NCBI RefSeq assembly: GCF_004216555.1 | Contig: NZ_SGWQ01000003.1 | Coordinates: 296,146 to 360,145 of the forward strand | DNA: 64,000 bases | Origin: Herbihabitans rhizosphaerae | GTDB lineage: Bacteria > Actinomycetota > Actinomycetes > Mycobacteriales > Pseudonocardiaceae | Direction of reading: 5' to 3' | Part shown: piece by piece, positions 48,657-52,857 of the stretch | How the letters are laid out: each line of letters opens with the position of its first letter | How positions within the stretch are numbered: position 1 is the stretch's first letter | Position numbers and translations under genes: made by a program | The notes under the pieces: generated by a model | The model's input: the letters and a program-made list of their open reading frames with translations, nothing else | What the model was told of the DNA's origin: nothing | Database searches by the model: none

Positions 48657-49523
48657 CTGAGCGATGAGCCCGGTCGGCGACAGCACGTCGCGCACGTGTC
48701 CCAGCGCCTGCTCGCTTCCGTCGAGCGCCCACTCGGTGAGATCGACCAACGCGCGGACGCACCGGTGGTAGCGAAGGTGATCCTGGTCCACCTTCACGGG
48801 CCCGTAGCCCTCGAAGAACGCTTGCTGCTCACCCGGTGTCACCGGCGCGAAGGCGAGCACACCGCCGAGTACGAACATCAGGTCCTGCTCACGCGGGGCG
48901 AGCACGGCGTCGTCCCAGTCGATCAGCCACACCTTCTCGCCGTCCAGCAGCACGTTGCCGGTGTGCGGGTCGGCGTGACACACCACCACCGAGTTCTCCT
49001 TGTCCCGCAACATGTTCGCGAGCCGGTCGGCGATCGCCAGTACGGCGTCCACATCGTCGCGGCGGAAGTCCAGAGCGTGCACGGTGTCGGCGAGGCGGCC
49101 GTGGTCATAGGACTCGCGCGGCAGCGCGGCCAGCTCGCCGGTCACCTCGGTGGCATGCACCTCTGCCAGCAGCGCGCCCAAGTGCCGCCAGTGGGCCGGC
49201 GTGAGCCCTTCGTCCATGCCTCGCCGATCGGACACCCACGGCGCGACCGACAGCCGCCGCTCGCCCCGAATCGTCCACATGCGACCGTCGCGAGTGGACA
49301 GTGGAGCGAGCACGCCGTCGATCCCGCGTGCGGCGAGCAGCGCCGGTACGGTAAGCCCGGCCGCTGATCCGCCCGCGCTCAACTTGACCGCGAACCGTTG
49401 TCCCGCAACGGAAACACCGTGCCACAGTTCGGCGAGCGTGTCCGCGCCAAGGCGCGCGCGATCCAGCGACGCCAGCTCGACGCCAAAGTCTTCGCGGACC
49501 CAGGCGGCCAGGTCAGCGGTCAC
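48615..49523 (-). CDS. aminoglycoside-phosphotransferase-like kinase
   Basis: 302 aa, GTG start. A protein-kinase-like fold of the APH/choline kinase family: the Brenner motif [20 protein letters not shown] (~183) with catalytic Asp, then [20 protein letters not shown] with the metal-binding Asp. N-lobe Lys is in [10 protein letters not shown]. The substrate may be an antibiotic or a small alcohol; sequence alone does not decide. Its start overlaps the end of the acyl-CoA synthetase gene by 11 bases, indicating translational coupling. It also overlaps the YccF gene at its 3' end. Confidence 0.85.
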
Positions 49524-51153
49524 CGGCGTCCACGCCGAGCAGCTCCACCGAGCGCTCCCGCATCTCCACCTTGCGGATCTTGCCGGTCACGGTCATCGGG
49601 AACTCATCAACGATGTGCACGTAGCGCGGGATCTTGTAGTGCGCGAGCTTGCCGGTACAGAATTCGCGAAGTGCTTGCGCGTCAAGGGGTTCCGCGCCCG
49701 GGCGAAGCTGGACCCAGGCCATCAGCTCCTCGCCATACTTCGCGTCCGGCACGCCGATCACCTGCGCGTCCTGGATGTCCGGGAGGGTGTACAGGAACTC
49801 CTCGATCTCGCGCGGGTAGATGTTCTCGCCGCCGCGGATCACCATGTCCTTGATCCGGCCGGTGATCTTGACGTAGCCGTCGCCGTCCATGATCGCGAGG
49901 TCGCCGGTGTGCATCCAGCGGGCGGCGTCGATCGCCTCGGCGGTCTTGTCCGGCTCCTCCCAGTACCCGAGCATCACCGAGTAGCCGCGGGTGCAGAACT
50001 CGCCGGCCTCGCCGCGCGGGACGGTCAACCCGGTTTCCGGATCGACGATCTTGATCTCCAGGTGCGGGTGAACCCGGCCGACGGTGGACACGCGCAGGTC
50101 GATCGAGTCGTCCGCGCGGGTCTGCGTGGACACCGGCGAGGTCTCGGTCATGCCGTAGCAGATCGTCACCTCTGTCATGCCCATCCGCTCGATGACCTGC
50201 TTCATCACCTCGACCGGGCACGGCGAACCGGCCATGATCCCGGTGCGCAGGCTGGACAGGTCGTACTCGTCGAACGCCGCCTCGGCAAGCTCCGCGATGA
50301 ACATCGTCGGCACGCCGTACAGCGAGGTGCACCGCTCGGTCGCGACGGCGTTCAGGGTCGCGAGCGGGTCGAACGAGGGTGCCGGGTACACAATGCAGGC
50401 GCCGTGGCTGGTGGCGGCGAGGTTGCCCATCACCATTCCGAAACAGTGATATAGGGGCGGAACCACGCAAATCCGATCCACCTCGGTGTATCCGCACAGC
50501 TCGCCCACGAAGTACCCGTTGTTCAGGATGTTGTGGTGCGACAGCGTGGCGCCCTTGGGGAAGCCGGTGGTGCCCGAGGTGTACTGGATGTTGATCGGAT
50601 CGTCCGGCGACAGGCTCGCCGACCGCTCGGCCAGCGCCGCCGGGTCCGCGCTCTTTCCGTTGGCGCACAACGAGGTCCACTCCTCGCCGTCGAGCAACAG
50701 CACGTGCTCCAACGCCTCGAGGTTCGGCCGGACCCGCTCGATCATGCCGGCGTAGTCCGACGTCTTGAACGCGCGCGCGGCGACCAGGACTCGCACGCCG
50801 GCCGACCTCAGCACGTACTCCAGTTCGTGCACCCGGTAGGCCGGGTTGATGTTGACCAGGATCGCGCCGATCTTCGCGGTCGCGTACTGCACGAGTGTCC
50901 ACTCCGGACAGTTGGGCGACCAGATGCCGACCCGATCGCCCTTCTCGACGCCCAGCCCCATCAGCCCGAGCGCCACCGCGTTCACGTCGGCCTGGAACTC
51001 GCGGTAGGTCCACCGTCTGCCGCTCGTGGTGTCCACGAGCGCGTCGCGATCACCGAACGCGGCGACCGTGCGGTCGACGTTGTCGCCGATGGTGTCACCG
51101 AGCAGCGGCACCTCCGACGTCCCGGACGCGTAGCTCGGCAGCGATGTCGTCAC
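49513..51153 (-). CDS. AMP-dependent acyl-CoA synthetase
   Basis: 546 aa from GTG 51153, which has GAGGAGG before it; a longer frame to 51240 is not needed. It activates a fatty or aryl acid to acyl-CoA via acyl-AMP. ANL motifs: [20 protein letters not shown] (AMP/phosphate loop), [30 protein letters not shown] then [28 protein letters not shown], and the C-terminal catalytic Lys in [12 protein letters not shown]. The type is close to medium/long-chain FadD2/AlkK-like ligases. The upstream region to 51301 has no gene and leads into the CRISPR array. Confidence 0.92.
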
Positions 51154-51301
51154 GTCAGGCCTCCTCGCCTCGACGGGTGCGGCTCCATCCTCACCCGCAC
51201 CGCCCGCCAAGGAAAAGGGCGCACCCACGCAGCCACCCACACCTGTACTAACCCGAGGCCGGAGACGTGGTCCGCATCCGCACGACGATCAGCTGCGTCA
51301 C

Positions 51302-51762
51302 GCCGCAATGGGGTCCGGCCGGTTCAGCCGGTGTTCTCGTTGCAGGATCTCGCCGACCAACTGCCGCAATGGGTCCGGCTGGTGGCAGTCACCAGCACGC
51401 GACCGGCGCTCTGTTCCGGTTGCTGTGGCCGCAATGGGGTCCGGCCGGTTGAGCCGGAGGCAGCGCCGTTTCCTGCTGTGGCTGGCGAAGCGGGTTAACC
51501 AGCCGCAATGGGGTCCGGCCGGTTGAGCCGGAGGCAGCGCCGCCGGTCGCCGCCGGGTGCGCGGTGTAGGTCAGGGCCGCAATGGGGTCCGGCCGGTTGA
51601 GCCGGAGGCAGCTCGATGTGGGGATCGCGCGCACGCTGCTCCTGTACACGCCGCAATGGGGTCCGGCCGGTTGAGCCGGAGGCAGCCGCGCACCGAGGGC
51701 GTGCCGGTGCACCTGGCGGAGGGGGAGCCGCAATGGGGTCCGGCCGGTTGAGCCGGAGGCAG
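51302..51762 (-). CRISPR. orphan CRISPR array, 7 repeats (5 identical, 2 degenerate)
   Basis: Five identical 36-base repeats lie at 51428-51463, 51502-51537, 51576-51611, 51650-51685 and 51727-51762, separated by unrelated spacers of 38, 38, 38 and 41 bases. Two degenerate repeats begin at 51302 (3' part lost) and 51363 (internally deleted), followed by spacers of ~25 and ~39 bases. On the minus strand the repeat holds a 6-bp hairpin TCCGGC/GCCGGA and ends ATTGCGGC, which resembles the 8-base 5' handle of type I/III crRNAs (ATTGMRRC-like). Degenerate repeats at the low-coordinate end fit a minus-strand array with its leader above 51762. No cas gene occurs in the window. Confidence 0.85.
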
Positions 51763-51964
51763 GGCTTCTGATTCTTGCACGGTCTGACCTGCGGAAACAG
51801 GGACGGTTGCGAGCGGTCCACTCGGCGGGCGTGTATCGGGCGGCCACCGAGGGCTAAAAACGGCCGTTTCTGCGGGTTGACCTGGGCGCGAGCGGTCCCC
51901 GGGAGTTGAGCTGGTACCGGACCGCTCGCATACGAAGGCCCGCCCGTCGTGGCAGATGCGGGCC
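51763..51964 (-). promoter_or_regulatory. candidate CRISPR leader with repeated GCGAGCGGTCC motif
   Basis: Non-coding stretch between the array and the convergent-oriented end of the peptidase gene. It contains GCGAGCGGTCC at 51809-51819 and 51888-51898 and its inverse at 51919-51929; the last pair forms an 11-bp hairpin that may terminate the peptidase gene. A-rich GGGCTAAAAACGG lies at ~51851. Leader function is inferred from array polarity. Confidence 0.5.
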
Positions 51965-52660
51965 TCAGCAGGTCACGGACACCTTCGCGCCGGAGCGGAA
52001 CGACACGTGCACGTGGTCGAAGTGGTTCGCGGTCGCGCCGCCGCGGTCCTCCATCGTGGACCAGCCGCTGCCGTCGTTGTACCGCTGCCGCCAGATCACG
52101 TACGTGACGCCGAACGCCTTCTGGTTGGCCAGGATGTAGTTGGCGATCAAGTTGCCCTTGGCGGTGTCGACCATGAAGTCCAGCGCCAGACCGGACGGGT
52201 GGTCGCTGGCGCCGCCGCGCGCGGCCCGGCCGCCGATGTCGTCGACGCCGAACATGGTCGCGATGTGGTTGCCCACCTGCGCCACGTGCGACTGAACGCC
52301 GTCCAGCGTCGTGCCGCACGCCTTGCCGGCGGTTCGCGGACGCGGCGACGGCTTGGGGGGAGTCGTCGTGGTCGTCGGCACGCGCGTGGTCGTGGTGGAG
52401 CTCGGGGGTGGCGCGACCATCGGCACGGGTGCCGTCGTCGGGATGGGGACCTGCGTCGTCACCGGGAGCTCGGCCGTGGTCGGGGGCACGGTCGGACCTG
52501 GCTCGACGGCGATTCGGGCCGCCGTGTCCTGAGTGGGAAGCTCTGAGCCGCTGGTCAGCGAGACGGTGACCGCGAGTCCCGCGGCGACCGTGACGCCGAG
52601 TCCTGCCGGCACCTTCCAATCGATGAGCTTCTTCGGGGGCTTTCTATGTCGACCTGCCAT
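51965..52660 (-). CDS. secreted or membrane-anchored M15-like peptidase-fold protein
   Basis: 231 aa from ATG 52660 (MAGRHRKPPKK); an ATG at 52681 is possible. One signal-anchor helix at ~15-37 (VPAGLGVTVAAGLAVTVSLT), then a Thr/Pro-rich linker (~45-110) and a C-terminal domain (~112-231). The domain has SDHPSGLALDFMVDT and HFDHVHVSFRSG, the Asp/His and H-x-H ligands of D-Ala-D-Ala peptidase-like (M15) folds, as in the ARB_07466-like C-terminal domain. A role in peptidoglycan trimming outside the cell is likely. Its 3' end abuts the CRISPR leader. Confidence 0.82.
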   Translation of the reverse strand: MAGRHRKPPKKLIDWKVPAGLGVTVAAGLAVTVSLTSGSELPTQDTAARIAVEPGPTVPPTTAELPVTTQVPIPTTAPVPMVAPPPSSTTTTRVPTTTTTPPKPSPRPRTAGKACGTTLDGVQSHVAQVGNHIATMFGVDDIGGRAARGGASDHPSGLALDFMVDTAKGNLIANYILANQKAFGVTYVIWRQRYNDGSGWSTMEDRGGATANHFDHVHVSFRSGAKVSVTC

Positions 52661-52857
52661 TCGGGGGATCACCGCTGTCATTGGGTCGGGGTCAGGTCCG
52701 GGGGAAGACCTCGGCTCCGGGGTCTGAGCCAGCCGTGACATTACGAAACGGACACGGCGGTGTCACGCCGGCGTGTCCGTCGCCACATTTTCGCTGGTGA
52801 ACGTGTCACGTCTACCAGCGCTTATCGCGGGCGGTTATCAACCAGACACGAATTGAT

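Follow-up and report, generated by a model that had tools for sequence, protein, structure and literature searches.

A CRISPR array with no cas gene in its surroundings raises the question of which system, if any, makes use of it. Such an array, here called W, was found at 51302-51762 on the minus strand of the window, that is, the whole stretch of 64,000 nt analysed (G000:C3:296146-360145, from a genome of 6.63 Mb in 25 contigs whose genes point to an actinomycete). It adjoins an AMP-binding enzyme gene (49513-51240, minus) on one side and the gene of a 258-aa protein without a Pfam match (51965-52741, minus) on the other. The sequence comparisons reported here make it highly probable that W belongs, as a remote satellite array, to the one CRISPR-Cas system detected in the genome, which is of type I-G and would serve it in trans.

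W consisted of five identical 36-nt repeats, with steps of 74, 74, 74 and 77 nt between their starts, followed by two decayed repeats at the leader-distal end, 51302-51388 (Table 1). A preliminary description of the locus had reported this anatomy (five identical repeats at 74-77-nt steps, 38-41-nt spacers, minus strand, and two decaying repeats at one end), and all of it was confirmed. Spacer W1, by its leader-proximal place, is presumably the newest. The 5′ edge of repeat 7 and the edge of W6 were placed with an uncertainty of approximately 4 nt. In the leader, the motif CGCTCGC...CAGGTCA was present in two copies.

Table 1. Coordinates of array W and its leader (window positions) and of the arrays A, B and C (positions on contig C1).
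Feature	Position	Strand	Remark
Leader of W	51763..51929	-	far edge = first conserved motif GCGAGCGGTC
Repeat 1, leader-proximal, 36 nt	51727..51762	-	Rfam CRISPR-DR20 E 0.0014
Spacer W1, 41 nt, leader-proximal	51686..51726	-	
Repeat 2	51650..51685	-	Rfam CRISPR-DR20
Spacer W2, 38 nt	51612..51649	-	
Repeat 3	51576..51611	-	Rfam CRISPR-DR20
Spacer W3, 38 nt	51538..51575	-	
Repeat 4	51502..51537	-	Rfam CRISPR-DR20
Spacer W4, 38 nt	51464..51501	-	
Repeat 5	51428..51463	-	Rfam CRISPR-DR20
Spacer W5, 39 nt	51389..51427	-	
Degenerate repeat 6, 26 nt	51363..51388	-	internal deletion, stem mostly gone
Spacer W6, 29 nt as delimited	51334..51362	-	
Degenerate repeat 7	51302..51337	-	Rfam CRISPR-DR20 20.6 bits, E 0.27
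Array A	C1:552023-553067		paired CATTGCGG search
Array B	C1:554569-555668		paired CATTGCGG search
Array C	C1:567601-569267		directly behind cas2; paired CATTGCGG search

The repeats of W cannot be attributed to chance, because a 27-mer of the repeat core, searched with up to 3 mismatches, was confined to the five W sites in the 6.63-Mb genome. The core was thus found at these five places only and not singly across the genome, and an interspersed genomic repeat was ruled out. Rfam CRISPR-DR20, searched over 50900-52300, matched the five repeats at E = 0.0014 (28.7 bits) and one decayed repeat at E = 0.27 (20.6 bits), all scores being below the gathering score of 42 bits. No sigma-70-like promoter consensus was found at 51200-52050; three terminator-like sites near W were located on the plus strand, in or at repeats.

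Within the window, as tested, no cas gene was present: the Cas1 family search of the whole genome gave a single match, on contig C1. There, on another contig than W, a complete type I-G operon was found (C1:558610-567428). All six of its proteins scored above the NCBIfam cut-offs for I-G or Cas2 (PADLOC and Pfam were also run), namely, Cas3g (TIGR02621), Cas8g/Csx17 (TIGR04113), Cas7g/Csb1 (TIGR02570), Csb2 (Cas5-Cas6; TIGR02165), the Cas4-Cas1 fusion (NF049935, 772.9 bits, cut-off 560), and Cas2 (TIGR01573, 37.4 bits, cut-off 24.5). The genome-wide searches of Cas families covered Cas1, Csb1 and the RAMPs. The type III RAMP profile, PF03787, had no match in the genome, with matches in 4 of 14 control genomes, and the zero count ruled against a type III-associated array. 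Pfam found no transposase, integrase or phage gene in 23 of the 27 ORFs at 32.8-63.4 kb plus three rival frames; these ORFs came from a simple gene caller, several had no Pfam match at all, and the scan began at 32.8 kb and passed over four small ORFs. To this extent the window was indeed as free of cas, transposase and phage genes as first described. The label "orphan" given to the array holds inside the window but not for the genome, which carries the I-G operon and three arrays that share the leader of W, so that the label is an effect of the window limits.

These three arrays emerged from a genome search for pairs of CATTGCGG 50-80 bases apart, which gave 39 places on the forward and 6 on the reverse strand, all of them inside arrays A, B, C and W; the reversed pattern gave 0 places. 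In a joint alignment of the 210 bases upstream of each array, the four leaders were 53-59% identical in pairs, and the leader of W had pairwise identities of 0.56-0.58 with those of A, B and C, compared with a mean of 0.34 and a maximum of 0.44 for 40 random pieces of the window. BLAST with W and its leader recovered the other three leaders (E from 4e-12 to 2e-4). The motifs in common were (A/G)CGAGCGGTC, C(A/G)CTCGC(A/G)C(C/G)CAGGTCA, and ACCGCTCGCAA...GTT(T/C)CC(G/C)CAGGTCA. The motif CCGTTTCCGCAGGTCA was present with at most 1 mismatch at three leaders and with 2 mismatches at the fourth; taken alone it is unspecific, because up to 2 mismatches gave 26 matches in the genome vs. 10 for the reversed control.

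Array A was a mosaic in which several kinds of repeat followed one another, including W-like repeats (C1:552598-552709) and C-like repeats, one of which differed from the array C repeat by a single base; some of its spacers were shortened (25-35 nt). These mixed repeats indicate a common history of the arrays, and units were probably exchanged between them. Two smaller sites, both missed by the paired CATTGCGG pattern, were also observed: a remnant array of two repeats, one decayed (C1:534857-534961), and a single repeat of the cas-adjacent kind (C9:135665-135711), flanked by one ORF with a YajC domain and one with a SecD domain.

The preliminary description had noted an internal 6-bp hairpin in the W repeat. 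The six Watson-Crick pairs were recovered, together with one G-U pair, giving a 7-bp stem (UCCGGCU/GGCCGGA) followed by CCCC (4 nt) and the last 8 nt, AUUGCGGC. According to the available part of PMC9638904, an I-G repeat is 36 nt long with a 7-bp stem, and Csb2 cuts 4 nt 3′ of the stem base, leaving an 8-nt handle; general background on I-G is given in the part of PMC10333696 that was available. The earlier reading of the 3′ end as a type I/III-like ATTGCGGC handle agrees with this layout, and the type can be narrowed to I-G. Folded alone, the W repeat had a free energy of -12.7 kcal/mol and a z-score of merely -0.86, because GC-rich shuffles fold as well.

Across 15 chosen and aligned repeat variants (12 from the genome, 3 from relatives), the 3′ end CATTGCGG was invariant and the stem varied. 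This alignment left out A1, A7, A8, A13, A14, the last units of arrays A, B and C, the decayed W repeats, and a C unit carrying one change; not all repeats fit, since the 3′ ends among the omitted units include ATCGCGG, CTATTGCGG, CCGTTGCGG, ATTGCGCC and ATTGTGAC. A stem of 6-8 bp ending exactly 12 nt before the 3′ end was found in 15 of 18 variants of the genome, in a test without A13, the last A unit, the decayed C and W units, and the changed C unit. The exceptions (A7, A8 and A14, inner or far units of array A) had 2 pairs at the expected place. The hairpin-less unit of array B, described below, had 1 pair and was kept out of the shuffling. When stem arms were exchanged between variants, the mean number of pairs dropped from 5.94 to 3.98, and 0 of 2000 shuffles reached the real value, in a control that ignores the relatedness of the variants. 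The stems of the four arrays differ in sequence but covary. Between the W repeat and that of the cas-adjacent array C, the last 10 nt were identical, with stem and loop being different. Repeat identity with the cas-adjacent array is no defining trait of I-G, although it would define the same array family strictly.

W is tied to the I-G operon because of the common leader, the common handle, the covarying stems, the I-G hairpin geometry and the linking repeats in array A. Transcription of W would begin from its own leader, on the minus strand, and the Cas6 domain of Csb2 would bind each repeat hairpin and cut 4 nt beyond its base, leaving the 8-nt 5′ handle AUUGCGGC. The resulting crRNAs would load into the Cas7g/Cas8g/Csb2 effector, which would recruit Cas3g to matching invader DNA. 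Cas4-Cas1 and Cas2 would add new spacers in trans at the leader end of W (51762), and the far end (51302) would decay. Service in trans by a distant Cas locus, which the preliminary description had offered as one of its possibilities, is in this way well supported by the operon, the common leaders and the cleavage geometry. Counting against it are the lack of a promoter consensus and of spacer targets, the decay of two of the seven repeats, the stem and loop that differ from those of array C, and the units that depart from the common 3′ end or stem position.

No spacer of W led to a credible target. Against 50,697 phage records, with W1-W5 searched singly and W6 too short for a search of its own, W2, W4 and W5 had no match, W1 had partial matches (E 0.6) and W3 weak partial matches (best E 0.04). 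The whole array against 72,556 plasmids gave a best E of 0.03 and no credible target. Codon-degenerate patterns of W1-W5, with one reading frame per spacer picked by eye, found 0 stretches in viral_contigs for all five. Arrays B and C behaved similarly in the phage search, with no match for array C and a best E of 0.09 for the hairpin-less array B. Absent spacer targets are common for arrays of little-sampled hosts. The shortness of W, its two decayed leader-distal repeats and the empty searches speak for a frozen relic, which the I-G system would have built in the past and which would now be untranscribed or closed to new spacers. We consider this unlikely: the five repeats at the leader end are identical with intact hairpins, the leader retains the common motifs, and active arrays, too, usually show decay at their leader-distal end. 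Of the relic proposed in the preliminary description, there remain the two leader-distal repeats, set against the five intact ones.

That description had also raised a role in regulation. W would then be a non-immune RNA locus with spacers acting on the own genome, for which its place between two chromosomal genes and the lack of credible phage matches can be cited. At E ≤ 0.001, however, no W spacer matched the genome itself in searches that scored 40 of 134 and 40 of 150 initial candidates; at this threshold, the matches of W were array sequence and leaders alone. When the neighbour protein was searched in 59 other genomes, 20 had a match, and in the best 10 of these 20 loci no array stood beside the homologous neighbour gene (approximately 1.5 kb on each side), as judged by counting CATTGCGG alone. 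One copy each was present at L075 and L082, which was taken as chance, and the other eight loci had zero. The ten loci are not truly syntenic, because they belong to other genera and the stretches compared showed no homologue of the second neighbour gene except a weak one in L082; in the genus-level search, the genome was its sole member. In this small sample of relatives, no array conserved in place was seen, and a conserved regulatory locus was disfavored. We regard a regulatory function as highly improbable.

Within the family, PF09617 (Csb1) had matches in 18 of 297 genomes. Arrays sharing the handle, recognised by a pair of CCCATTGCGG 55-75 apart, were found in 5 of 297, namely, this genome and four others, all four being outside the 18 Csb1 genomes. 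G069 (C1:206001-225000) encodes a Cas4-Cas1 48% identical to that of the I-G operon, Cas2, and a stand-alone protein resembling Csb2's C-terminal half; the same neighbourhood contains Cas10/Csm3/Csx10-like genes, a CARF protein, and the same repeat family with an identical 3′ end. It is possible that G069 has a type III system in which repeat processing and adaptation are of the I-G kind. In G271, a piece of Cas4 was found, as was a protein with a match to Csb2 in its C-terminal half. In 20-kb stretches of G248 and G279, there was no match to the Cas proteins of the genome studied. Therefore, judging mainly from one genome, the repeat in this family may be linked to the Cas6 domain of Csb2 and to Cas4-Cas1, and not to one effector. 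One array of G271 (G271:C11, L154:17353-17726) had five consecutive units whose spacers are all the same, which is either a tandem duplication inside the array or an assembly artefact.

The occurrence in G069 of the same repeat family beside Cas10/Csm3-like genes, a Csb2 C-terminal half and Cas4-Cas1 is also the evidence for W having been imported with another Cas system, such as the type III-like one of G069, and now being without its own effector. This origin is very unlikely, given that the leader and W-like repeats are common to the I-G arrays of the genome and that the genome has no RAMP match. The exact 20-nt repeat core, moreover, turned up in just one record of genome_contigs, a MAG named Mariniphaga, which has a single copy that sits, by eye, in an apparent coding sequence (genome_contigs may leave out the genome studied).

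A satellite array of type I-G is a known kind of locus, and W is an added instance. Remote arrays served in trans, also called orphan or isolated arrays, have a leader, no cas genes nearby, and a complete cas locus elsewhere. W has all three features; it differs in that its repeat departs from the cas-adjacent one, the link being made by leader, handle and hairpin geometry. By these, an orphan-looking array can be assigned to a Cas system despite a different repeat. Compared with the I-G system (formerly I-U) of Thioalkalivibrio sulfidiphilus, as far as the available part of PMC9638904 describes it, the repeat has the same 36 nt, 7-bp stem, 4 nt and 8-nt handle, and the operon the same content of Cas3, Cas8g/Csx17, Cas7/Csb1, Csb2 (Cas5-Cas6), Cas4-Cas1 and Cas2; unlike in that system, W is off the operon contig and four arrays with different stems are present. 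With their covarying stems, these four arrays offer ready material for asking which features of a repeat Csb2 recognises.

Sister array B has lost the hairpin at its leader end. Its leader-distal repeats are CTCTCACCGGCCGAAAACGCCGGTCCCCATTGCGGC, and its five leader-end repeats carry a 13-nt deletion that removes the hairpin; folded alone, such a unit had -4.8 kcal/mol and a z-score of -0.09. Between the five shortened repeats lie four spacers, B1-B4, and after the fifth stands the 38-nt spacer B5. Each B1-B4 unit consists of the shortened repeat followed by ACCAACTCTTTGAC, identical to the opening 14 nt of B5, so that the unit length is 37 nt, or 36 nt if the terminal C arrives with each spacer. 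A run of N at about C1:555030-555126 and the identity of spacers B7 and B9 indicate an assembly gap or masked stretch and make the number of B units there uncertain; given the internal N run, array B may contain an assembly fault.

On the simplest account, once the 13 nt were deleted, the integrase would have gone on cutting at a distance of 36-37 bp from the leader junction, irrespective of the sequence there. Each new unit would then have duplicated the opening 13-14 nt of the adjacent spacer, keeping the unit at 36-37 nt. The I-G repeat length is thus likely measured from the leader side, the hairpin being unneeded. In the parts available to us, PMC6895254 describes rulers within the repeat in I-E, I-B and II-A, and small II-A deletions downstream of the ruler after which the repeat takes in an old-spacer base; PMC10504553 describes directional integration in I-G without using the word "ruler". 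Array B resembles the engineered II-A repeats of the former source, as far as they are described there, in that unit length is kept by absorbing old-spacer bases, and it differs in being a natural 13-nt deletion in an I-G genome that implies leader-side measurement without the hairpin. It suggests how the control of repeat length in I-G could be tested directly.

Two of the four spacers of the hairpin-less units matched the genome itself, vs. 0 of 34 others (Fisher p 0.0085, post hoc). The 34 comparison spacers were 6 distinct ones from the intact part of B, 22 from C and 6 from W, and in the self searches of B and C, 40 of 78 and 40 of 116 initial candidates were scored. Two partial matches were uncounted, that of B11, which is among the 34 (83% over 42 nt, E 1.3e-4), and that of C17 (20 of 40 nt identical to C1:540222-540241). 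The 14 spacers of array A were outside the 34, because they were compared only with the window and 46 kb of C1, and B12, the sequence past the last degenerate repeat, was excluded as a spacer. The contrast, drawn from four spacers, would fit if array B had lost the processing of crRNAs and self spacers had been purged from the other arrays. Array B might be a harmless sink, because hairpin-less RNA should escape Csb2 cutting; self-derived spacers would persist there and would be purged from functional arrays, W included. The joint reading of array B, as a leader-side ruler working without the hairpin and a harmless sink that keeps self-derived spacers, is plausible but falls somewhat short of probable. 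The array also lets one ask whether self spacers vanish only where crRNAs are made.

The B1 target (C1:579767-579804, 37 of 38 nt plus the preceding base) lies in a gene with a Peripla_BP_2 domain that adjoins a FecCD gene, and the B4 target (C6:327548-327587, 39 of 40 nt plus the preceding base) in an ORF without a Pfam match. Both targets are preceded by the terminal C of the B unit. The I-G PAM is given as TTN in the available part of PMC9638904, and it is found only at the B4 target, because the preceding bases are TTC there and ATC at the B1 target.
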